DNA from: Candidatus Bathyarchaeota archaeon | GTDB lineage: Archaea > Thermoproteota > Bathyarchaeia > Bathyarchaeales > Bathycorpusculaceae | Direction of reading: 5' to 3' | DNA: 64,000 nt | NCBI GenBank assembly: GCA_026014545.1 | Contig: JAOZIH010000002.1 | Location: forward strand, 62,001-126,000 | Shown here: in pieces, positions 17,037-61,858 of the stretch | Position numbering within the stretch: the stretch's first letter is position 1 | How the letters are laid out: every line of letters starts with the position of its first letter | The notes under the pieces: generated by a model | What the model was told of the DNA's origin: nothing | Database searches by the model: none | Seen by the model: the letters and a program-made list of their open reading frames with translations, nothing else | Translations under genes and position numbers: made by a program

Positions 17037-19307
17037 TCAATTATTCTTTCGCGCGGTGTTGACGAACTGGCCCACATCTAGAACGAGGACTACTTGCCCA
17101 TCGCCTAGGATTGTGGCGCCGCTTATTCCTTTGATTCCCTTTAGGGTTTCGCTGAGAGGCTTCACCAGAATATCCTGCTGACTTATAACCGAATCCACTA
17201 TTAAACCAAGTTTCGTCTTTTCATCGCCTAAATGTGTGATTAAGAGTTCAAATTCTTCCTCATTAGGGCCTTCATATCCAAGTAGCTTATGCAGATGAAC
17301 AACTGGAATCACTTTGCCTCTGACAACTATTGCATCGGTTTTTCCCAGCAACTTTATGTCGCTTTTCTTTGCTCGAATAATCTCTGAGACTTGGCTTGTG
17401 GGAATTGTAAACGTCTGTCCAGAATCACGTACAAGTATAGCCTTAATAATCGCTAACGTTAACGGCACTTTTAGGATAATTTTTGTTCCTTTACCTACAC
17501 GTGTTTCAAATTGAACTGTACCGCCGAGAGCAGCAATTTTTGTTTTCACGACATCCATGCCAACTCCTCTGCCGCTTGTTTCAGTGACCTCTTTGCTCGT
17601 TGAGAAGCCAGGCAGGAAAATTAGGCTGACTAACTCGTTTCGACTCATCTTTTCAGCTTCTTCTCTGCTTACGAAGCCCTTCTTAATAGCGACTTCCTTG
17701 ATTTTCTCCGGATCAATTCCGGCGCCGTCATCTTCAACCTCGATGATAACATGCTCTCCGCTTCGCTGCGCTGCGAGTCTTATCTTTCCAACAGGATTCT
17801 TATTCAGTTTCTTTCTTTCTTCAGGTGGCTCTATTCCATGATCAATGCTGTTTCTCAGCAGATGGATAAGTGGCTCTCCAATTTCATCCAATACTGTGCG
17901 GTCAATTTCAATGTCTCTTCCTTCCATAACGAGCTCAATAAGCTTGTTTCGCTTCAGTGCAAGATCTCTCACTAATCTTGGGAATCGGTCAAAAATTTGA
18001 CTTACCGGAACCATTCGCACTTGCATTACCAGATCATGGAGATCAGATGTAAGTCTGTCAATGTTCTCAGCTATGCGCTTTAGCTCTCCGCTTCTGTTAT
18101 CCGAAATTAGCTGGAGCAGCGCGATCTTGTTAATGACAAGTTCGCCAACCAAATTCATTATCTTGTCAAGCTGCTCAAATTTCACGCGGACAGTTTGGGT
18201 AGCCCTGACCTCCGCAAACAGTTTCGTAGCTTCTGTTATTTGCTTGCTCTGTTCATCAATGCAGCGTTTTAAGGAAGACGCCTTATCTTCCATGATTGTG
18301 CTTTTAGTTTCTGGAGAAGGCGGCTCTGTCGCCGCTGACGTTTCAATTAGAGAAACTTGGCTTGCTCCTTGAATGTTTTGCTCTATAGCTGCGCAATAGG
18401 TCTTGAGTTCTGGTTTAGCTTCTAGCTTCTTTTCAGTTTTGACTGAAACTGCCGCTTCTGTTTTGACTTCTGGTTTAGCCTCTGCCTTGGCTGATTCTGC
18501 AGGGCTATAATGGACAACATGTACATCTTCTATCTCGCAGACTTGACGAATGCATTTTTCAATTTCCTCAGCGCTACATTTGCTTATAAGTGCAATTTTG
18601 AAACCAGCCTCAAGTTCATCTTCCTTAAATGCCTCAAGTTCTTTTTGATCAGGGTGCGTTTTGATTATTTCAGCCAACTCTGAGATCTTACTTAGAACAA
18701 GGATTGACCTGACGCTTTTGAAAGCGCAGTCTTTGCTGAACTTCAAATCTACAAAATAACAATGTTCACCGCATATTTCAGCGTTTATTATTGCTTCTTT
18801 TTCAGTTTCAGTAAGTTCTATTGCTACCTTCTTTGTCTCTGCAGGCAAAACTTCTTTCTTAATTTCGGCGGGTGGAACCTCTTTCTTCATTTCTTTTACT
18901 TCTTCAAGCGCGGTCAACTCAGTTGCTTCTTGAAGTTTCTGAAGTAACATTGGAACTTCAATTTCTTCTTCATTCATGTTTTGTATGTTCTCTAACCTAG
19001 CAGAGAGAGCGTCTGAACATTCAAGAAGCACGGTAATTAGGTTACTTGAAGGTTTAACGCCTTTTCGAAGGTCATCAAAGACATCCTCCATCGCATGTGT
19101 TAGCTCTTGGATATCCTTATAGCCCATCATGCCTGAGCAGCCCTTTAGAGTGTGCGCTGCTCTGAAAAGCATATTAACAAGTTCCATATTTTGCGGATCT
19201 TTTTCTAGACTTAGCAGTGATCTCGTAAGCGTATCGATATGTTCCCTTGCCTCTTCGATGAATACTTCTCTATATTGGTTACAATCTGTTGGCAAGAGAT
19301 CTCCCAC
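17037..19307 (-). CDS. cheA: Chemotaxis histidine kinase CheA
   Basis: A 756-residue CheA. Domains: P1 phosphotransfer (about 1-105) with H52 in AAHTLKGCSGM; a long linker (about 125-360) rich in Lys/Glu/Pro and including a small alpha/beta P2-like part; dimerisation helices from about 370; HATPase with N-box LLRNSIDHG (about 486), DDGAGID and TSGRGVGMDVV (about 580); and a C-terminal CheW-like domain. It phosphorylates CheY. GTG at 19307 is used; a TTG four codons later has GGGAG upstream and could be the true start. No cheW, cheB or receptor gene is seen in the window. Confidence 0.95.
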   Translation of the reverse strand: MGDLLPTDCNQYREVFIEEAREHIDTLTRSLLSLEKDPQNMELVNMLFRAAHTLKGCSGMMGYKDIQELTHAMEDVFDDLRKGVKPSSNLITVLLECSDALSARLENIQNMNEEEIEVPMLLQKLQEATELTALEEVKEMKKEVPPAEIKKEVLPAETKKVAIELTETEKEAIINAEICGEHCYFVDLKFSKDCAFKSVRSILVLSKISELAEIIKTHPDQKELEAFKEDELEAGFKIALISKCSAEEIEKCIRQVCEIEDVHVVHYSPAESAKAEAKPEVKTEAAVSVKTEKKLEAKPELKTYCAAIEQNIQGASQVSLIETSAATEPPSPETKSTIMEDKASSLKRCIDEQSKQITEATKLFAEVRATQTVRVKFEQLDKIMNLVGELVINKIALLQLISDNRSGELKRIAENIDRLTSDLHDLVMQVRMVPVSQIFDRFPRLVRDLALKRNKLIELVMEGRDIEIDRTVLDEIGEPLIHLLRNSIDHGIEPPEERKKLNKNPVGKIRLAAQRSGEHVIIEVEDDGAGIDPEKIKEVAIKKGFVSREEAEKMSRNELVSLIFLPGFSTSKEVTETSGRGVGMDVVKTKIAALGGTVQFETRVGKGTKIILKVPLTLAIIKAILVRDSGQTFTIPTSQVSEIIRAKKSDIKLLGKTDAIVVRGKVIPVVHLHKLLGYEGPNEEEFELLITHLGDEKTKLGLIVDSVISQQDILVKPLSETLKGIKGISGATILGDGQVVLVLDVGQFVNTARKNN

Positions 19308-19354
19308 CTTGAATTTTTAGAGACCACGCTATTCTCAAGGGCTTGCTGTTTTCA

Positions 19355-20275
19355 CTACTGTACAACTATCCCTTGTCCTCCTGTCAGATTATTTAGAGTA
19401 AGTGTGTTACCTTGCGCTACACCTAACTTGTATTCCGACTTACAAGAGGCGCCTTTTGAGGGCTTTTGGTAAACGCGGCAATTAACATCGATACACAAAA
19501 ACTTCATACTTGGTTCGCCGCTCAGTATTTCAGATTTTCCAGTCACTAGATACCCTCCTTCTCGGAGTGCATTGTAAAATTGCATGTGAATCTGCTGTTG
19601 GCTTTCTCTCGCGAAGAATATCATGACATTCCTGCAGAGTATCAAATCTAAATTGTTATGCAAAGGAGGCTTCATTAAGTCATGCTTTTCAAAGTGAACC
19701 AATTGCTTAACAAAATCCTTAACCCTATACGTCGTGGAATCATGCAAAAAATATTCGTTGATTAGCGAGTCTTCAACCTCGCACAATTGTTTTTTTGTGT
19801 ACTCGCCTTTTTGGGCTTTAGCTAAAGCATCATCATCGATGTCTGAGGCAAAAATTGTGACTTTATAATTTGGCAACTGGTTACCTAGCACTTTGTGAAC
19901 CAAAATCGCGAGGGAGTAGGGTTCTTCACCTGAAGCACAACCTGCGCTCCAAATAGTAACTTCCTTAGAATTGAAAAGAACTGGGAGAATTCTTTTTTCA
20001 AGATAATCATATACATCTCTATCTCTGAAAAATGTGGTAAAATTAATTGTCAAATCATTTAGAATATTATTAAATTCCGTTGGGTTTTTCTTTAAATAAC
20101 TCAAGTATTTGCTGTAAGTGTAGGTGCCAGTTGCCCTCAAGCGGATTGATAATCGCCTTCTGAGGTATTCATCACGATAACAACTAAAATTGAGTCCGAT
20201 GGTCTCACGTAACAAGTTTTTCAGTTTTTGGTAGGCTATGTCTTCAAGAAAATTATTAATTTCAACCGAAACCAT
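19355..20275 (-). CDS. cheR: Chemoreceptor methyltransferase CheR
   Basis: A CheR-type SAM-dependent glutamate methyltransferase of about 306 residues. The N-terminal helical domain includes RDEYLRRRLSIRL, followed by NFTTFFRD and the SAM motif SAGCASGEEPYSLA, then LDLILCRNVMIFF. It would methylate receptors, which are not in this window. The ATG at 20275 lies inside the end of the second cheC (14-base overlap) with GGAGG 12 bases upstream; a longer frame begins at 20335. A short C-terminal tail after the catalytic domain is of low complexity. Confidence 0.92.
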   Translation of the reverse strand: MVSVEINNFLEDIAYQKLKNLLRETIGLNFSCYRDEYLRRRLSIRLRATGTYTYSKYLSYLKKNPTEFNNILNDLTINFTTFFRDRDVYDYLEKRILPVLFNSKEVTIWSAGCASGEEPYSLAILVHKVLGNQLPNYKVTIFASDIDDDALAKAQKGEYTKKQLCEVEDSLINEYFLHDSTTYRVKDFVKQLVHFEKHDLMKPPLHNNLDLILCRNVMIFFARESQQQIHMQFYNALREGGYLVTGKSEILSGEPSMKFLCIDVNCRVYQKPSKGASCKSEYKLGVAQGNTLTLNNLTGGQGIVVQ

Positions 20276-20981
20276 CTTGCATGTTTTCCTCCAATGCAAC
20301 ACATTCAGTGCGCCCTGCTTCCAAATTTCCGTCATTTACAGAAGCATCGCCGATCAGCCATTTCCTGCCTTTCTGAACCAGTATCCTTTGAAGCTCATCG
20401 CCGAGAAAAGTTATGAGAAATCCTTCGGTTGAAGTGTTACATCGTTTAAAGCGCGCATCAAAAATCACTGCGACATCAGAGCATAACGCCTGTTTAATTA
20501 TAAGCCCATCTATAATTGCATCAAATGAGTCGACGATTAATTGAGGTGGCGTCATGACAAGCTTGGTTGATGTGAAATTAGCCATAGCGCTGAGGAAAGA
20601 AGTTAGTACTATAGATCCCATTTCTTCTATCGCCGATCTTTGAATTTCCGGGGTAACTTCCATACCGTTAGTCATTAACTCAACGATTTTCGCGCATTCG
20701 TTTTCCTCAAAAATTAACATGACATCGCAGTCTGCAGTGCCTCTTAATTGCATAAAGATGGCAGAGACCATGGTGTCGTGTTTTCCATAAATGCCAGGAA
20801 CAAGATGCGGCAATGTTACATGGACTCTCGGCAACTCGATTGCTATTGGTTCCTGCAGAACTCGGGAGAGCGCAGTAGTAGCATGCCCAGCGCCCATATT
20901 ACCAATTTCGAGAAGTATATCCTGATCTGTCAGCATTTCACCAAAATTCTCTGTTTTTGAAGTAGAAACTAATTCATTCAT
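20262..20981 (-). CDS. cheC: CheC-family CheY-P phosphatase, second copy with altered site
   Basis: A 239-residue CheC. The first active-site motif is complete (D21-x3-E25-x2-N28-x22-P51). In the second motif, S116-x3-E120-x2-S123-x22-P146, serine replaces the catalytic asparagine, so the protein may have a single working site. CheC removes phosphate from CheY-P and is stimulated or inhibited by binding CheD. Its ATG overlaps the stop of the first cheC by one base. Overlaps cheR at the 3' end. Confidence 0.9.
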   Translation of the reverse strand: MNELVSTSKTENFGEMLTDQDILLEIGNMGAGHATTALSRVLQEPIAIELPRVHVTLPHLVPGIYGKHDTMVSAIFMQLRGTADCDVMLIFEENECAKIVELMTNGMEVTPEIQRSAIEEMGSIVLTSFLSAMANFTSTKLVMTPPQLIVDSFDAIIDGLIIKQALCSDVAVIFDARFKRCNTSTEGFLITFLGDELQRILVQKGRKWLIGDASVNDGNLEAGRTECVALEENMQDGFG

Positions 20982-21727
20982 TAGTATTCACCTGCTATCC
21001 TATTTTTCCTTGCAGTCTTGCTAGGAGCTTTAGTTTCAATCTCCATGTTTCCAGCGAAAACTAATTCAACATCGCTTCTTTTTTCAGCCTTCTTTCTGGA
21101 AACTTTGGATCTGTTTACCAGCAGTTCTTGCAATTCAGGACTTGGAAATATCATGAGTTGGGCTGGAGCATAATAACCTCCTTTGCGCTTGAAGCATGTG
21201 TCAATAACTAAGGCTTCGCCGGTTGTCGCGGATAATTTTCTAACGAAATCGCTAATTATGGAGTCAAAAGGCGCGCCTATCAGCAGCGGTGGAGTTGAGA
21301 CGAGATTCATCCCTGTTAAATCCGAAATTGCAGTAAGGAATGAGCCTATCAGAATGTTGCCAAGTTCCTCAATTGCAGATAACTCAATAGAAGATTCTTG
21401 TTCTGTATGTGAAAGGCTTCTTGTCATAAGCATAGTAATCTCTTTCAATTCGAGCATCTCAAAGATAAACAGAAAGTGGCATTCCACTTTTTCTATGAGA
21501 TGTATGTAAACTGCAGTTGCAGGCATGTTCTGGCCATGATAGAACTTCGGCAACATACCCGGCGGAATCATGCCAACGCGAGGTACATCTATCGTTACTG
21601 GTTGCTTAAGAATCTTTGAGAGTGAATTTGCAGCATGTTTGGCGCCGATGTTGCCGATTTCAAGAAGTATCTTTAATTTTTTCTTCTCCAGAGCTTTGCT
21701 TGCTTTATTCTTACTTTTTATTCTCAT
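20981..21727 (-). CDS. cheC: CheC-family CheY-P phosphatase, first copy
   Basis: A 248-residue CheC with both Glu-x2-Asn pairs: E23/N26 with P49 in the first half and the SAIEELGN motif with the expected downstream Pro in the second. In the first motif a Lys stands where Asp or Ser is usual. A basic C-terminal tail of about 40 residues extends beyond the fold. Its ATG overlaps the cheD stop as ATGA. Two adjacent cheC genes in one operon suggest division of labour in signal termination. Confidence 0.9.
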   Translation of the reverse strand: MRIKSKNKASKALEKKKLKILLEIGNIGAKHAANSLSKILKQPVTIDVPRVGMIPPGMLPKFYHGQNMPATAVYIHLIEKVECHFLFIFEMLELKEITMLMTRSLSHTEQESSIELSAIEELGNILIGSFLTAISDLTGMNLVSTPPLLIGAPFDSIISDFVRKLSATTGEALVIDTCFKRKGGYYAPAQLMIFPSPELQELLVNRSKVSRKKAEKRSDVELVFAGNMEIETKAPSKTARKNRIAGEY

Positions 21728-22380
21728 ATCTCCTTTATCTCTCCATTAGAAAGGCGAATAGTTAACGTTCCATTTCCAATATTGAATTCGATTTTGCGCC
21801 CGTATGAACCTCCCACATCCTCGGCAACTAGCCTGATTCGATTGTCTTTCAACGCTGCTTTAATTGCATCAACATTTTTTCGGCCCACGTGCTGATCGTT
21901 ATTGCTTAAATTTGGAAGTATGCACGCGCCACCGGCTATCTTGGCCGAAAGAACGGTTTCTTTCCCGCCGATTTTTCGCACGGCTTCTGCCAAAGCTGGC
22001 ACAGCGGTGTCAGCAAATTTGCCTGGAACGGAATTCTGCAACTTGCGAGTGGTGCTTGGAAGCATAACATGTGCTAATCCACCACACTTGTGTATAGGGT
22101 CATATAGGCAGAGAGCTACACATGACCCGACATTGGTAACTAACTTAATCGGTTTATTTTCAACTTTTATCTCTGCCATTGCTACACGCACTTCCTGTAT
22201 GGGTAGCTGCACTTGAAGGCCTGCGAGATGCGTTGTTGCAGGCTGTGCATGTGTGATTAGCTGGTCGGGCAACCGCTGCAGTTCTTTTACGTTGTTTAAC
22301 GGTACAGTTGTTTCTACTTTTATTTCCGGCTGATCTACCACGTTGGTTGCCAAGTGGTTTTCCTCAGCAGTACTTCGCAA
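21724..22380 (-). CDS. cheD: Chemoreceptor deamidase CheD with N-terminal extension
   Basis: The core from about residue 65 matches CheD: catalytic Cys in NVGSCVALCLYD, His in GGLAHVMLP, then GKFADTAVPAL and KIAGGACILPN. CheD deamidates receptor glutamines and binds CheC. About 65 extra residues precede the core if the TTG at 22380 or the TTG at 22353 (GAGG upstream) is used. Starting at the in-frame ATG just before AEIKVENK would give a standard-length CheD of about 151 residues but leave an unusual gap to cheY. Confidence 0.88.
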   Translation of the reverse strand: MRSTAEENHLATNVVDQPEIKVETTVPLNNVKELQRLPDQLITHAQPATTHLAGLQVQLPIQEVRVAMAEIKVENKPIKLVTNVGSCVALCLYDPIHKCGGLAHVMLPSTTRKLQNSVPGKFADTAVPALAEAVRKIGGKETVLSAKIAGGACILPNLSNNDQHVGRKNVDAIKAALKDNRIRLVAEDVGGSYGRKIEFNIGNGTLTIRLSNGEIKEI

Positions 22381-54792: not shown

Positions 54793-55527
54793 CTACGTAA
54801 GTAGCTTTAACCTTTTAAGTTCATCTACAGAAATTTTCCCAGAATGCAAAGCCGTGGCAACGAGAACGCCAGCTACGCCAATTTTTTCTAGTTCAATCAA
54901 GTCGTCAATATTGCGTAAACCGCCGCCAACAAATATGTGCCCATGGAAATTCTTCAGCGCATCCTCTATGAAGCGCATGTTAACGCCTTCTCCACTGCCT
55001 ACCCTTGCCAAGTCCAAAACAATAACTTGTGAAGCACCTGCTTCCTGAAGCGCTTGTAAAAGCGCCATTGGTGACATAGGCGCCGCTGTGTCCAAGCGAC
55101 TGAGCACTTGACCGTTCATTAAGTCGAGGCTCACTATCACTTTTTTGTTTCCGAATAAGCGCACGGCTTCAGCTACAAGGTTAATAGTAGGCAAGGTTTC
55201 TGTTCCGATAATAATCTTTGAGGCATGATTCTCCAACAAGCGCTCCGCTTTTTCGAGTTTATCCACGCCAGCGTCAACCATAAGTTCCAGTCCAGTTTCC
55301 TCCGCGATGCCCCTTAAAATTGAGAGATTCATTTTTCCGCCTAATATAGCGTCTAAGTCGGCTACGTAAAGCTCGCTGAAGCCCAGCTTCCTAAATGCGG
55401 CAGCAACATCCAGCGGGTCTGTGGAGGAGCATAAGCGGCTTTTGAGCGGCTGATACTCTTTCCTTTTGCCGCGTACCGCATGAACCACTTTGCCGCCGAG
55501 TATATCGATGACTGGTATAACCTTCAC
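54793..55527 (-). CDS. HisA-like TIM-barrel protein at the methanofuran locus
   Basis: A 244-residue HisA/HisF-fold protein. The start IPVIDILGGKVVHAVRG has the HisA catalytic Asp, VSLDLMNG the second, and VGGGLRN and GVLVATALHSG the C-terminal phosphate-binding loops. No other histidine gene lies nearby; instead it is divergent from mfnB with 137 bases between. HisA-like genes also occur beside the C1-pathway genes of methylotrophs, so a role in methanofuran or related cofactor synthesis is plausible. The alternative is a true HisA. Confidence 0.7.
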   Translation of the reverse strand: MKVIPVIDILGGKVVHAVRGKRKEYQPLKSRLCSSTDPLDVAAAFRKLGFSELYVADLDAILGGKMNLSILRGIAEETGLELMVDAGVDKLEKAERLLENHASKIIIGTETLPTINLVAEAVRLFGNKKVIVSLDLMNGQVLSRLDTAAPMSPMALLQALQEAGASQVIVLDLARVGSGEGVNMRFIEDALKNFHGHIFVGGGLRNIDDLIELEKIGVAGVLVATALHSGKISVDELKRLKLLT

Positions 55528-55664
55528 AGTGCTTGCCTCTACTTAACAATTCCGCTTGCCTATTTAGAAAAAGCTTGCCTTTATTAGCTGCTTCTGGCTA
55601 CAGCAACATCCTTGTGCAGGCGCTGATGACAAAAACTTTAAAGGTTTAGGAATTCCGCTTCAAT

Positions 55665-56420
55665 ATGATTAAATTGAAACTGTTAATAAGCCCAATGAAC
55701 GAAACAGAAGCATTAGAAGCCATCGCCGGCGGCGCCGACATAATCGACGTCAAGAACCCTCGGGAAGGTGCATTAGGCGCCAATTTTCCATGGGTGATAA
55801 AACGCGTCCGCGAACTCGCACCAGCAAACGTTGAAGTAAGCTGCACCATAGGCGAGTTGCCCAACCTTCCCGGCGCGGCGTCGCTGGCTGCTCTCGGTGC
55901 GGCAACAACAGGCGTAAACTACGTCAAAGCCGGGCTCTGCGGGTTGAAGACGCTTGAAGAAGCCGTTTACTTCATGCGCCACATCGTCCGGGCAGTAAAG
56001 GAATTTGATTCTTCAATCAAAGTGGTTGTTGCAGGGTACGCTGACGCTGAAAGAGCCGACGCAATAGACCCGCTGCTTGTGCCCGAAATAGCCTATAAAG
56101 CCCAGGCGGATGTGGCTATGCTTGACACGGCGGTTAAAGATGGCAAACGCCTCTTCGACTTCCTCTCGATGGAGCAGCTTAAGCGATTCGTTGAGGCAGC
56201 GCACAATTACCATTTAGAAGCGGCATTAGCGGGCTCGCTGCGAAAGGAGGACTTGCCTGTTGTTTATGCTTTAGGCGCTGATGTAGCTGGCTTGCGCGGC
56301 GCTGCATGCACACAAAACGACCGCGTCAACGGCAGAATTACAAGAGAAAGAGTCCAGGAGCTTGTTGAGGCAGTTAGACGCGCAGAGGCAAAGGCCGCAC
56401 CAAAGCTCAGGAAGTTTTAA
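55665..56420 (+). CDS. mfnB: (5-formylfuran-3-yl)methyl phosphate synthase MfnB
   Basis: A 251-residue TIM-barrel enzyme of the DUF556 family that makes the furan precursor of methanofuran from two glyceraldehyde-3-phosphate molecules. Key lysines are K30 (DVKNPREGALG, Schiff-base candidate) and K158 (LDTAVKDGK), in the positions known from the methanogen enzyme, with GLRGAACTQNDR near the C-terminus. It starts the mfnB-A-D-F-E run; the next gene starts two bases after its stop. Confidence 0.93.
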   Translation: MIKLKLLISPMNETEALEAIAGGADIIDVKNPREGALGANFPWVIKRVRELAPANVEVSCTIGELPNLPGAASLAALGAATTGVNYVKAGLCGLKTLEEAVYFMRHIVRAVKEFDSSIKVVVAGYADAERADAIDPLLVPEIAYKAQADVAMLDTAVKDGKRLFDFLSMEQLKRFVEAAHNYHLEAALAGSLRKEDLPVVYALGADVAGLRGAACTQNDRVNGRITRERVQELVEAVRRAEAKAAPKLRKF

Positions 56421-56422
56421 TC

Positions 56423-57589
56423 ATGCGGGATAAGGGGCTGAGCCGAAAGGCGGTGCTTGCTGCGCTGAAAAAGTTTCTGGAGCAAGACAGAGGCTATGCG
56501 GACGGCAAAATCCTGTGCTCAATGTGCACTTCACCACACAGTATCGCGCGAACAGCGCACAGATGGTTTTTAAACCCGAATCTCGGGGACGCAGGGCTGT
56601 TCCCAGGAAGCCTAAAGCTGGAAAAAGAAGCTGTTCAGCGTCTCGCGGCGCTACTTAACGGCGAAAACAGCGTTGGCTTCATTGTTTCCGGAGGCACAGA
56701 GGCTAATCTTTTGGCGCTTTGGGCAGCAAGAAACATGGCTTGCGCATGCAATCCTGAGGTTGTTCTGCCGGAGTCTGCGCATTTTTCCTTCAAGAAAATC
56801 TGCAACTTGCTTGGGCTAAAACCTGTCTATGCAAGTTTAGACAGCGCATACCGAGTTAAGCCTTCATCCGTAGAGAAATGCATCACGCGGAACACTGTTG
56901 CCATCGTCGGCACAGCTGGAACAACCGAGCTAGGCACAGTTGACCCAATTGACAAGCTCTCTGCGATTGCCGTGACTCACGGCGTTTATTTGCATGTGGA
57001 CGCAGCCTTCGGCGGCCTAATAATACCATTCCTAAACGACATGGGCTACGAAGCCAAGGAATTTGACTTCCGCTTGGAGGGCGTAAAATCCATCACCGTT
57101 GACCCGCATAAGATGGGTATGACGCCTATTCCCGCAGGCGGCATCCTATTCCGCGACAGCGCAGTTCTGGATTACATCAAGACAGAAACGCCCTATCTAA
57201 CTGAAAAGTGGCAGTACACGTTTGCAGGCACAAGGTCGGGCGCGTCAGCAGCGGCTGCTTGGGCAGTGTTTGAGCACTTAGGCCGCGAAGGCTTCAAAAA
57301 AATAGTCAGGCGATGCATGCGGCTAACCAAGTTTTTGTCCTCGAGGCTTGAGGCTTTAGGCTTTACTCTTGTAGTTCAGCCACAGTTGAACATAGTGGCG
57401 TTTAAAGCCGCAGACACAAAGCAGTTAGTGGAAAAACTTAGGCAGCACGGCTGGCTCGTATCTTACATTCCGCGTCTTGACTGCATCAGAATAGTTATCA
57501 TGCCTCATATAAGAAAAAGGCACTTGGCAGCGTTTTTGAAGGATTTAAGCCACATTGCCCAAGCAGACGCTTCCTCCTTAAAGCCATGA
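56423..57589 (+). CDS. mfnA: L-tyrosine/L-aspartate decarboxylase MfnA
   Basis: A 388-residue group II PLP decarboxylase. The PLP Lys is in VDPHKMGM (about residue 230), the ring-binding Asp in HVDAAFGG, and SGGTEANLLA marks the phosphate loop. It makes tyramine from tyrosine for methanofuran; some archaeal homologues decarboxylate aspartate for coenzyme A. The surrounding mfn genes favour tyrosine. It is spaced 2 bases after mfnB and 12 before mfnD. Confidence 0.93.
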   Translation: MRDKGLSRKAVLAALKKFLEQDRGYADGKILCSMCTSPHSIARTAHRWFLNPNLGDAGLFPGSLKLEKEAVQRLAALLNGENSVGFIVSGGTEANLLALWAARNMACACNPEVVLPESAHFSFKKICNLLGLKPVYASLDSAYRVKPSSVEKCITRNTVAIVGTAGTTELGTVDPIDKLSAIAVTHGVYLHVDAAFGGLIIPFLNDMGYEAKEFDFRLEGVKSITVDPHKMGMTPIPAGGILFRDSAVLDYIKTETPYLTEKWQYTFAGTRSGASAAAAWAVFEHLGREGFKKIVRRCMRLTKFLSSRLEALGFTLVVQPQLNIVAFKAADTKQLVEKLRQHGWLVSYIPRLDCIRIVIMPHIRKRHLAAFLKDLSHIAQADASSLKP

Positions 57590-57601
57590 AGATAAGAGGC
57601 G

Positions 57602-58837
57602 ATGTTCTTGAATGTTCTAGTTTACGAGCATGTTTCCGGCGGAGGCTTCGCTGGCACGCAAGTTCCGCCAAGCGTATTAAGCGAAGGCTTCAGCATGCTG
57701 CGCAGTTTAGTTGCCGATTTCAAAGCCGCTGGACACACTGTAACCACTATGCTTGATTCGCGAATTGCAAAGTTTACTCCGCCTCTTAACGCTGACTGCA
57801 TCGTACCAGTTTTCGCCCAGAAAGAAATCCAAGAGATAATCAGCAAGAACGCGGCTTCAGCTGATGCAGCCTATGTGATTGCGCCGGAATCCGAGGGCGT
57901 GCTGCAGTCGCTTCTGGAAACTGTCGAGAAGACCGGCGTGGCCTCGTTGAACTGCGCTGCTGACGTCATCGGCAAAGTCGCGGACAAGGCGGTTCTCCAC
58001 AAGTTCCTAAGTGAACTGGACGTGCCCCAGCCCGAGACCATGGTTTTTGGCGCGGAAGCATATGCAGAAGAGGTTAAGCGGGCTGTCACGGGCAAGCTGC
58101 GTCTTCCTTTAGTATTCAAACCTTCCTGTGATGTTAGCTGCGGCGGCTTGAGCCTCGCCAGAAATGAGCGGCAAATAGCAGCGGCAGTGGCCAAAATTAG
58201 GCGGGAGTGTGTAAGTAAGCGTTTTCTGGTTCAAGAATTCATCCGCGGAGCTGCCGCCAGCGTCAGCGTAATCTCCACCGGCGGCGAAGCCATGCCCATA
58301 AGCCTAAACTGCCAAGACATCGCCCTTAAAACGCCTGATGGTGCTTCAGTTTATCGTGGCGGTTTGGTGCCTTTCGAACATCCAATGCAGTTTAAGGCGT
58401 TTGCAACAGCGGAAAAAATTGTTAAATCTTTCCCTGGCCTCAGAGGATATGTCGGGGTAGATTTGGTTCTGACCAACGAAGAAGCGTTCGTAATTGAGGT
58501 TAACCCGCGATTAACCACGTCCTACGTTGGGCTGCGGCGTGTTGTCAACTTTAACCCTGCTGAAGCCATCGTAAACGCTGTTTTAAAAAGCGAGTTGCCA
58601 ACCAATGTGCAAGCTTGCGGGCACGTCCTATTTTCAAAGGTGGAACTGCCACCGCCGACGCCGAATATTCTTCAGACAATATATGAGATGAGTGAAGTTG
58701 CTGCTCCGCCTTTCCCGCTTTCAAGCAGCAGCGCATGCGCACTTATTTCCGCTTACGGCATCACAGTGAAAGCGGCGACCGCAAGGTTTCGCGAAGCTAA
58801 AAAGCGCATCCTCAAAGTGGCGCAGGGAGGCGAATAG
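57602..58837 (+). CDS. mfnD: Tyramine-L-glutamate ligase MfnD (ATP-grasp)
   Basis: A 411-residue ATP-grasp ligase. The N-terminal pre-domain begins NVLVYEHVSGGGFAG, a hallmark of this family; the ATP-grasp core includes LVFKPSCDVSCGGLS, FLVQEFIRG and the metal site VIEVNPRLTTSY. It joins glutamate to tyramine via the gamma-carboxyl, an early step in methanofuran side-chain assembly. AAGAGG precedes the ATG. Its TAG stop shares one base with the mfnF GTG start. Confidence 0.92.
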   Translation: MFLNVLVYEHVSGGGFAGTQVPPSVLSEGFSMLRSLVADFKAAGHTVTTMLDSRIAKFTPPLNADCIVPVFAQKEIQEIISKNAASADAAYVIAPESEGVLQSLLETVEKTGVASLNCAADVIGKVADKAVLHKFLSELDVPQPETMVFGAEAYAEEVKRAVTGKLRLPLVFKPSCDVSCGGLSLARNERQIAAAVAKIRRECVSKRFLVQEFIRGAAASVSVISTGGEAMPISLNCQDIALKTPDGASVYRGGLVPFEHPMQFKAFATAEKIVKSFPGLRGYVGVDLVLTNEEAFVIEVNPRLTTSYVGLRRVVNFNPAEAIVNAVLKSELPTNVQACGHVLFSKVELPPPTPNILQTIYEMSEVAAPPFPLSSSSACALISAYGITVKAATARFREAKKRILKVAQGGE

Positions 58838-59913
58838 TGTTGGTCAACGTTATGGGCTTGGACATTGGAGGAGCCAACACCAAAGCGGCTTTCGTACGCG
58901 CCGAAAATGGCGGAGTCGCGGAGCTTAAAACTGCAAGTGAATACTTTCCAGTGTGGAAGGATAAAAGCAAGCTTGTCAGCGTGCTTCTGGAGATGAAGAA
59001 GCGGTTAAGCGGCGCAGCACCGCTTCACGGCGTCGGCTTGACCATGACTGCCGAGCTATCGGATGCTTATGAAACGAAACGGGAAGGCGTCAACCACATC
59101 CTAAAATGCACAGCTGAGGCTTTTGCGGATGTGCCAATCTTCATTTTAGACGTGGACGCCACCTTAAGGCCCATAGACTCCGCGAAAATGGAGCCGCTCC
59201 GTGTAGCCGCAGCTAATTGGGCTGCTACGGGCTGGATGGTTTCTCAGTTAATAAAAACCTGCGTCGTAGTTGACATCGGAAGCACCAGCACCAGCATAAT
59301 CCCCATCGTTAACGGGTGCGTCGCCGCCGCAGGCAAAACTGACCTTGAGAAGCTAATGTGCGGCGAGCTTGTTTACACGGGCACTCTGCGAACCAACATC
59401 GCTGCAATCGCAAGTTCCGTTCCGCTTAGAAATGGTCGCGCGCGGGTTTCATCGGAGCTGTTTGCGCAGTCTGGCGATGTACATCTAATCTTGGGCAACA
59501 TTACGGCTAAGGAGTACACTTCAGAAACTGCGGATGGCCGAGGGAAAACACTGCGAGAAGCCATGGCGCGGCTTGCGCGAGTTATCTGCGCAGACATCGA
59601 GATGCTAACCGAGCAGGAAATACTCCAGATGGCCCGCTACATCTACAGCAAGCAAGTTGAGCAAGTAGCCGACGGGCTAAGCGAGGTTTATTCCCGCGTA
59701 AAAGCTCTTGCAGCAGGCGAAGTTCCAGTCGTCGTTACAGGCATCGGCAAAAACTTTCTTGCACGAGCTGCCGCGGAAAAAATCGGCGCGGACAAAATCA
59801 TCGACCTCGGAGAGTTGCTAAGTGGCGATGCAACCGTGGCTTCGCCTGCCGTAGGCGTCGCATTGATGATGGCAAGCAGACTTGAAAGGAGAGCCGTCAA
59901 ATGGACGCGGTAA
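58837..59913 (+). CDS. mfnF: Methanofuran condensing enzyme MfnF (hydantoinase/oxoprolinase-like)
   Basis: A 358-residue ASKHA-fold protein with GLDIGGANTKAAF at the N-terminus and VVDIGSTSTSIIPI mid-protein, the pattern of the H4MPT-linked C1 transfer pathway protein. In methanogens MfnF couples the diphosphorylated aminomethylfuran to gamma-glutamyltyramine. The GTG start follows GGGAGG by six bases. It overlaps mfnE by 13 bases. Confidence 0.9.
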   Translation: MLVNVMGLDIGGANTKAAFVRAENGGVAELKTASEYFPVWKDKSKLVSVLLEMKKRLSGAAPLHGVGLTMTAELSDAYETKREGVNHILKCTAEAFADVPIFILDVDATLRPIDSAKMEPLRVAAANWAATGWMVSQLIKTCVVVDIGSTSTSIIPIVNGCVAAAGKTDLEKLMCGELVYTGTLRTNIAAIASSVPLRNGRARVSSELFAQSGDVHLILGNITAKEYTSETADGRGKTLREAMARLARVICADIEMLTEQEILQMARYIYSKQVEQVADGLSEVYSRVKALAAGEVPVVVTGIGKNFLARAAAEKIGADKIIDLGELLSGDATVASPAVGVALMMASRLERRAVKWTR

Positions 59914-60575
59914 TAAAAATAGGAGGCAGCCTAGCCGAGAGCCCTGAACAGCTGAAAGCCTTAGGCTTTAAACTAAGTGAGCTAGCAAAGAAATATGCTG
60001 TTACTGTTGTGCCAGGTGGAGGCCGCTTCGCTGACATGGTAAGGGAGATTGATAGGCGCTTCGCTTTATCCAGCATGCTTGCGCATAGAATGGCGATTCT
60101 GGGCATGGACCAGTATGGGTTGCTGCTGACGCAAATCATTCCAAACTCCGTTGCAACCTACCTGCTCAGCGACGCAAGACAACTGTCAGAGATTGGTGCT
60201 GTGCCCATTTTTTTGCCATCGCGGCTAATGTTCAAGGAAGATCCGTTGGAGAATTCGTGGGATGTCACTTCAGACTCGATTGCCGCTTATGTTGCCAGTC
60301 GCTTGGGCGCAGCAAAATTGCTGCTAGTTACCGATGTGGATGGAATTTTCACAGAGGATCCAAAGCAGTACGCGGACGCGGCTCTGATAGAGCGGTCATC
60401 AACCGGGGAGCTACTAAGGCTGAATAAGCGAACCAGTGTTGACCGTCACTTGCCTAAGCTGCTTTTAGAAATGCCAATGGATTGCTATGTGGTTAATGGG
60501 AACTATCCTGAAAGAGTAGCTGCCATCTTGGACGGGCAGCACACTGTTTGCACATTTATCGCTCCGAGAAAATAA
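59901..60575 (+). CDS. mfnE: [5-(aminomethyl)furan-3-yl]methyl phosphate kinase MfnE
   Basis: A 224-residue amino-acid-kinase-fold enzyme. The start AVIKIGGSLAESPEQL, VVPGGGRFADMVR and LLVTDVDGIFTEDP are typical. MfnE phosphorylates the furan phosphate to the diphosphate that MfnF uses. Start inside the mfnF end. The transaminase MfnC, needed to make the amino form, is not in this window. Confidence 0.92.
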   Translation: MDAVIKIGGSLAESPEQLKALGFKLSELAKKYAVTVVPGGGRFADMVREIDRRFALSSMLAHRMAILGMDQYGLLLTQIIPNSVATYLLSDARQLSEIGAVPIFLPSRLMFKEDPLENSWDVTSDSIAAYVASRLGAAKLLLVTDVDGIFTEDPKQYADAALIERSSTGELLRLNKRTSVDRHLPKLLLEMPMDCYVVNGNYPERVAAILDGQHTVCTFIAPRK

Positions 60576-60589: not shown

Positions 60590-60613
60590 GGCCAAGCATG
60601 AGTGTATATGTGT

Positions 60614-61444
60614 ATGCAAGAGCTTCCACTTGTAGCTGTTGTTAAAGGCGAGCGTGGTCATGCGCCGGTTTTCAAAGCCTTAGACCTAATCGACTACAAG
60701 AGCGCTCTTGTCGGCTACGATAAAGTGCTTATCAAAGTTAACTTCATAACCAACAAAACCTGGGATACGGGGGCAACCACCGATCCCGTGGTGGTGGAGG
60801 CCATAATCAAGAAGCTTGAAGTGCTGCCCGTGAAAATCTACGTGGTCGAGTCGGATGCTACCATCACCAACGCGGATAAAGCCTTCGAAGTTACGGGTAT
60901 GAAGGACATGTGCCAACGAAATGGCGTTGAATGGCTTAATCTGCGGCACGTTAAAGATAAGGTTACCCTTGCTATACCTGACGGTGAAGCGCTTAAGAGC
61001 ATAACTGTGCCGCGAATAGTTACTGAATCCGCCGTCATCAGCGCCGCCAAGCTAAAAACGCATGTGGATACGGGCGTAACGTTGGGCATGAAGAACATGT
61101 TCGGGCTGCTTCCTGAGAAATTTAAAGGCAAATACCATTTGAAAGGCATAAGCAAAGTGGTTGTTGACATTAACACGGTGCTTAAACCCGCGCTAACTGT
61201 TATCGACGGCTTTGTAGGCATGGAAGGCAAAGGCCCCATAGACGGCACACCAGTACCGATGAACCTCATCATCGCGGGAAAAGACCCTGTAGCCACTGAC
61301 GCCGCTGCTTGCCGAGCCATGGGGTTCAATCCATACGAGGTAAGCCACATAAGGCGGGCCAGCGAAAAAGGCTTAGGATGTATCGAAGCGCAAATCGTGG
61401 GCGAAAAACTCGAAGCAGTAGCCAAGCAATTCAAAAGAAACTGA
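60614..61444 (+). CDS. DUF362 family protein
   Basis: A DUF362 protein of about 276 residues (full domain length) without an added ferredoxin domain. Family motifs: VLIKVNFITNKTWDTGATTDP near the N-terminus, KLKTHVDTGVTLGMKNMFG near residue 155 and the C-terminal DPVATDAAACRAMGF. The function is unknown; many members are near Fe-S or redox genes. GTG 60602 and ATG 60608 are in frame, but the ATG at 60614 fits the TATA spacing. It lies between the methanofuran and hydrogenase genes. Confidence 0.82.
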   Translation: MQELPLVAVVKGERGHAPVFKALDLIDYKSALVGYDKVLIKVNFITNKTWDTGATTDPVVVEAIIKKLEVLPVKIYVVESDATITNADKAFEVTGMKDMCQRNGVEWLNLRHVKDKVTLAIPDGEALKSITVPRIVTESAVISAAKLKTHVDTGVTLGMKNMFGLLPEKFKGKYHLKGISKVVVDINTVLKPALTVIDGFVGMEGKGPIDGTPVPMNLIIAGKDPVATDAAACRAMGFNPYEVSHIRRASEKGLGCIEAQIVGEKLEAVAKQFKRN

Positions 61445-61768: not shown

Positions 61769-61858
61769 ATGGTGCTTAACAAAATGTTGCACAAGACAAA
61801 GCCCAAAGTCACCATTCCCAAAAACTTGAAAGAGCATCTGAAGGTGCAAAATAAATGA
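61769..61858 (+). CDS. Possible 29-residue leader peptide overlapping mvhG start
   Basis: ATG at 61769 opens a 29-codon frame (basic, ending HLKVQNK) whose TGA overlaps the mvhG ATG as ATGA. A shorter start exists at 61784. No family is recognised. It may be a translational coupler or the remnant of a degraded upstream hydrogenase gene; it may also be chance. Confidence 0.3.
   Translation: MVLNKMLHKTKPKVTIPKNLKEHLKVQNK

Follow-up and report, generated by a model that had tools for sequence, protein, structure and literature searches.

A HisA-like TIM-barrel gene facing an archaeal methanofuran operon: a probable dedicated enzyme of furan cofactor synthesis

Methanogenesis, the archaeal Wood-Ljungdahl pathway and the oxidation of formaldehyde in methylotrophs all use methanofuran as the carrier of the first one-carbon (C1) unit. 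The six-enzyme pathway described for Methanocaldococcus jannaschii, MfnA-F, includes no HisA-like protein. In the methylotroph Methylorubrum extorquens, Orf17 (Mext_1835) is a PF00977 protein, called an MJ_0703 homolog, that is encoded in the same cluster as homologs of mfnB, mfnE and mfnF (PMC8141765). Deletion of orf17 abolished methylofuran and left late intermediates undetected, whereas methenyl-dephosphotetrahydromethanopterin (methenyl-dH4MPT) was still present; the mutant could be complemented (PMC8141765, 2021). The authors left the role of Orf17 open and proposed an early step, and this protein is the only member of its family for which an in vivo need in methylofuran synthesis has been shown (PMC8141765). 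The literature searched contained no later paper on Orf17. Here we analyze a stretch of 64,000 nucleotides (the window; contig JAOZIH010000002.1, positions 62,001 to 126,000) from an archaeon whose closest named relatives are Candidatus Bathyarchaeota genomes. In this window, a gene for a HisA-like TIM barrel faces an operon of mfn genes, and very probably it performs a still unassigned step of methanofuran synthesis. We infer its substrate, step and reaction: with a probability of roughly 0.7, its product is a dedicated methanofuran/methylofuran enzyme of the furan branch, acting between MfnB and MfnF and likely at or near the amination. The features of the locus are as follows.

54793-55527, minus strand: HisA-like TIM-barrel protein of the Orf17/MJ0703 (TIGR00734-related) family, 244 amino acids, GTG start (family scans, AlphaFold, fold match, residues, tree)
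55528-55664, no strand: divergent intergenic region, 137 bases (sequence)
55665-56420, plus strand: mfnB, (5-formylfuran-3-yl)methyl phosphate (4-HFC-P) synthase (family scans: NF002573, 330 bits, cut-off 341; Pfam 4HFCP_synth, 276 bits; match to solved MJ1099, 288 bits)
56423-57589, plus strand: mfnA, tyrosine decarboxylase (TIGR03812, 509 bits, cut-off 299)
57602-58837, plus strand: mfnD-like tyramine-glutamate ligase, ATP-grasp (NF040722, 133 bits, cut-off 400; ATP-grasp_3, 120 bits, and preATP-grasp_3 domains)
58837-59913, plus strand: mfnF, which couples F1-PP with glutamyl-tyramine (TIGR03123, 340 bits, cut-off 244; NF040623, 283 bits)
59901-60575, plus strand: mfnE (NF040622, 175 bits, cut-off 300)

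The five mfn genes form a tight operon (55665-60575), packed head to tail as the original prediction had described, with gaps of 2 bases (mfnB/mfnA) and 12 bases (mfnA/mfnD) followed by overlaps of 1 base (mfnD/mfnF) and 13 bases (mfnF/mfnE). The prediction also placed the HisA-like gene opposite them across 137 bases with no other his genes nearby, and both statements hold: family scans of the block detected neither other his genes nor mfnC. A TATA-box-like stretch, ACTTTAAAGG, identified by eye only, lies in the divergent region about 25 bases upstream of mfnB. MfnD and MfnE are divergent members of their families; together with MfnB they fall below the NCBIfam equivalog cut-offs, as can be expected of sequences from a divergent archaeon. 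Like M. jannaschii, the window has MfnB, A, D, F and E, but no mfnC is present in the cluster.

To assess co-occurrence, we screened 200 genomes of the window's phylum with a completeness of at least 85%, bearing in mind that metagenome bins are incomplete. mfnB was present in 31 of these genomes and mfnF in exactly the same 31. The HisA-like gene was detected in 29 of the 31, and the remaining 169 genomes yielded no copy (Fisher's exact p = 6e-33, relatedness ignored), and recognition of a copy split into two pieces at contig ends in G128 raised the count to 30 of 31. The 31 genomes span 11 families, and f1, f6, f15 and f20 hold positives and negatives alike. The association of the HisA-like gene with mfn genes is therefore far beyond chance. 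Among 41 close relatives, mfnB occurs in 12 and a full-length HisA-like gene in 10, nine of which belong to the 12; a contig end truncates the gene in the mfnB-bearing G004, and in G040, which yielded no mfnB match, the gene nevertheless adjoins mfnE, mfnF and mfnD. Of 14 named control genomes, only M. jannaschii and Methanosarcina acetivorans, the two methanogens sampled, gave a HisA-like match with E < 1e-30, and the same two carry mfnB and mfnF.

The reverse scan started from the HisA-like gene, taking one genome per species and the 80 best-scoring of 574 confirmed stretches, a selection that is therefore not random. The flank was examined for mfnB first, and the search was extended to the whole genome when the flank contained none. 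mfnB was found in 75 of the 80 genomes (39 in the flank, and elsewhere in 36 of the other 41). The archaea among the 80 are Bathyarchaeota, Asgard archaea, other Thermoproteota/Nitrososphaeria and Altiarchaeota, and the bacteria include Planctomycetes, Chloroflexi, Acidobacteria, Gemmatimonadetes, Deltaproteobacteria and Hakubella. The original prediction had suggested that the gene may serve an unassigned step in furan cofactor synthesis and proposed looking for co-occurrence with mfnB and for a second hisA; the near-perfect co-occurrence in both directions and the separate hisA described below support that suggestion and are the opposite of the two results that would have refuted it.

Three further observations concern unusual arrangements of these genes. 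The 0.87 Mb single-contig relative G010 has an mfn cluster with broken mfnA and mfnF frames, which reflect decay or sequencing errors; another mfnF, whose profile match starts at position 42, lies with mfnE about 280 kb away, and the HisA-like gene is absent. G196 has two divergent HisA-like copies, one beside mfnB, mfnF and mfnE and the other on a separate short contig, where contamination (7%) could explain it. Finally, Streptomyces plasmids carry a conserved cassette of mfnB, an aldehyde dehydrogenase, an alcohol dehydrogenase and a SAM (S-adenosylmethionine) methyltransferase without other mfn genes and with no HisA-like gene near mfnB; here the furan synthase seems to serve a different purpose, perhaps in a natural product pathway.

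We next considered whether the gene is simply a paralog of ordinary HisA (ProFAR isomerase) that adjoins mfn genes by chance. The shared fold is compatible with this explanation, given that the AlphaFold model (pLDDT 95.6) matches PriA/HisA with a TM score of 0.86 and that the strand-1 (D8) and strand-5 aspartates and the C-terminal phosphate loops of HisA are retained. Family scores place the protein elsewhere. It scores 170 bits against PF00977 but 137.9 bits against the HisA equivalog TIGR00007, below the cut-off of 228.95. Its best NCBIfam model is TIGR00734 (hisAF_rel), the model of MJ_0703, at 155 bits, short of the curated cut-off of 180 that one control genome passes; TIGR00734 is a HisA/HisF-related hypothetical equivalog family whose function is not assigned. 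The window genome has a separate hisA-hisF pair on another contig (G000:C36:19922-21391), indicating that the HisA-like gene is not its histidine gene. In addition, neither hisA nor hisF was detected in G276, G234 and G275, some of which are incomplete, despite the presence of the HisA-like gene. In a tree of 96 rows, 24 HisA and 3 HisF sequences split from all 69 family members with branch support of 100/99. Combined with the loss of the strand-6 catalytic aspartate, the GW motif and the GGG-R motif, these results led us to reject an ordinary histidine gene, an explanation we regard as scarcely credible. As a separate observation, HisA and HisF are apparently fused in one 509-amino-acid frame in the relative G035 (G035:C22:1250-4936, minus-strand frame of 509-511 amino acids), unlike other relatives of the window organism, in which hisA and hisF are separate genes.

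The residues conserved in the family provide clues to its ligand. P5, D8, G20, R22, Y25, Y54, A56, D57, L58, D85, G87, E110, S133, D135, G177, G202, G203 and L222 are invariant in all 69 aligned members, and H228 is found in 67; R22, Y25, D85, E110 and H228 are additions relative to HisA/PriA. The position of the HisA strand-6 aspartate is occupied by valine (V176) in 68 of the 69. D7 and D176 are the residues mutated as a pair in Salmonella HisA structures, according to the PDB titles, and presumably constitute the catalytic pair. Replacement of the strand-6 aspartate makes a ProFAR-type isomerization unlikely, and the data so far give no support to an isomerase. The GW substrate motif is lost, as is the GGG-R motif and with it part of the N-terminal phosphate site, whereas the phosphate-binding loop of strands 7 and 8 is kept, which suggests a singly phosphorylated ligand. 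Judging from the sequence, this ligand should be a small, singly phosphorylated molecule instead of ProFAR. In the predicted structure, D8, D85, E110, D135, G202-G203 and H228 lie at the C-terminal strand ends or just beyond them, on the catalytic face. These invariant polar residues resemble an active site and not a docking surface, and this argues against a partner without catalytic activity, serving as a carrier or scaffold to shield the reactive furan aldehyde or to tether MfnB, MfnE and MfnF. Such a partner would account for a pathway that runs in vitro without the HisA-like protein although the cell needs it (PMC8141765, PMC11365854), yet we consider it quite improbable.

Gene order connects the window gene to Orf17. 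In the 80 loci of the reverse scan, mfn genes lie at most 8 kb from the HisA-like gene in 49, and the gene is adjacent and divergent in 38, facing mfnB in 18, mfnD in 17 and mfnF in 3. The same divergent arrangement is seen again in Asgard archaea, Chloroflexi, Desulfobacterota and Proteobacteria. Among plasmids, those of Azospirillum, Thiodictyon, Aquabacterium, Azoarcus and Paraburkholderia have the HisA-like gene facing an ATP-grasp gene with mfnF behind it, and on a Phyllobacterium plasmid it stands directly opposite mfnF. The layout of the window is thus common to both domains. The proteobacterial homologs encoded divergently from ATP-grasp-mfnF share approximately 30-37% identity with the window protein. 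Homology and gene order group the window gene with Methylorubrum Orf17 as its putative archaeal counterpart, an orthology drawn through the plasmid relatives, gene order and family and not through comparison with the Orf17 sequence itself. The window gene differs in being archaeal and in having mfnA and mfnD in its cluster. The original prediction had noted that HisA-like genes also accompany C1-pathway genes in methylotrophs, and the essential role of Orf17 in methylofuran synthesis bears this out (PMC8141765).

A role in tetrahydromethanopterin (H4MPT) synthesis, as was once proposed for MJ_0703, could be read from the clusters of many bacteria, in which H4MPT genes are also present. In most Bathyarchaeota loci, however, mfn genes alone, of the gene set searched, adjoin the HisA-like gene, and the orf17 mutant contains methenyl-dH4MPT while lacking methylofuran (PMC8141765). 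On the basis of these published mutant data we rejected this role, which is very unlikely.

Divergence from mfnB might instead point to a helper of the first step, which would supply or isomerize triose phosphate for MfnB or carry out dehydration and ring closure of an MfnB intermediate. Facing mfnB is the arrangement in 18 of the 38 divergent cases, a single phosphate site suits triose phosphate, and closure of a five-membered ring is known of HisF-type barrels. Against this, mfnD is as frequent a divergent partner (17 of 38), and MfnB by itself condenses two molecules of glyceraldehyde-3-phosphate into 4-HFC-P in vitro (PMC11365854). Moreover, the actinobacterial genomes G383 and G522 (~7.9 Mb each) and the relative G016 hold mfnB without the HisA-like gene, exactly where mfnF is missing as well. 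The gene therefore tracks methanofuran synthesis and not MfnB as such, which suggests a step after MfnB. A first-step role is, in our estimation, unlikely.

The side-chain branch is disfavored by comparison with M. extorquens, which has neither MfnA nor MfnD and yet requires Orf17 (PMC8141765). This requirement argues against the tyramine/glutamate branch, as does the retained phosphate site. What remains is the span from 4-HFC-P through F1-P to F1-PP. MfnC, the aminotransferase for conversion of 4-HFC-P to F1-P, has not been identified in M. extorquens (PMC8141765). The mfn cluster of the window encodes no aminotransferase. For these reasons our tentative preference is for a placement at or beside the amination. 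The identity of several intermediates of the pathway has yet to be firmly established (PMC11365854), leaving room for an extra step. The proposed enzyme, the putative archaeal counterpart of Orf17 and MJ0703, is a HisA/HisF-type TIM barrel in which strands 1 and 5 retain their aspartates and the C-terminal phosphate loops persist, while much of the remaining HisA active site is replaced. Its most likely substrate would be either 4-HFC-P or F1-P, and its reaction would be the conversion of aldehyde to amine or a neighboring one. It could act alone, in concert with an aminotransferase, or as a handler of the reactive aldehyde.

A bolder version of this proposal, also unlikely in our view, is that the barrel is itself the true MfnC of most organisms and carries out a cofactor-free 1,3-proton-shift transamination or an ammonia-fed amination of the furan aldehyde. 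If true, this would be a novel type of reaction for the HisA/HisF fold, and it would account for the absence of an aminotransferase from the mfn cluster here. The window genome encodes several class I/II aminotransferases outside the mfn cluster, and no MfnC-specific model was among their matches. One of them (G000:C16:13833-14840) has as its best solved relative 2z61, 'probable aspartate aminotransferase 2', which we take to be MJ0684, the protein reported as MfnC. It is flanked by apparent chorismate synthase and prephenate dehydrogenase genes, and the candidate MfnC may thus be located in an aromatic amino acid operon.

Several points weigh against a dedicated enzyme at or near the amination. 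The aminotransferase just described could be MfnC, judging by its sequence relationship. In vitro, the coupled core is reportedly assembled by recombinant MfnA-F without a HisA-like protein (PMC11365854, PMC8141765), and it is hard to see which chemical step would require one. The 98% complete genome G056, the one clear exception to co-occurrence among the phylum genomes, carries mfnB together with mfnF and mfnE, yet the HisA-like gene is missing and only an ordinary hisA-hisF is present. In planctomycetes, the HisA-like gene is unlinked to mfn genes in 14 of 14 loci, mfnB nonetheless being present in 13 of those 14 genomes. Finally, the assignment of the step rests on elimination.

Other genes of the window were noted in passing. 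A gene for a DUF362 protein (60602-61444) starts on the same strand 26 bases past mfnE and may be co-transcribed with the operon; it is followed at 61855 by a gene for a VhuG-like hydrogenase subunit. The chemotaxis genes cheA, cheR and a cheC-like gene are clustered at 17037-22380.

Overall, methanofuran synthesis has been treated as a six-enzyme pathway, yet its genes are joined by a seventh in lineages that range from Bathyarchaeota and Asgard archaea to Planctomycetes and Proteobacteria, and this gene proved essential where it was tested, in M. extorquens. Its role in methylofuran synthesis is already known in bacteria, but its reaction is not, and the window gene joins a functionally unsolved family. 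Together with the invariant residues and the branch presumed for the gene, the co-occurrence pattern reduces the question of what Orf17 does to a small set of assays.

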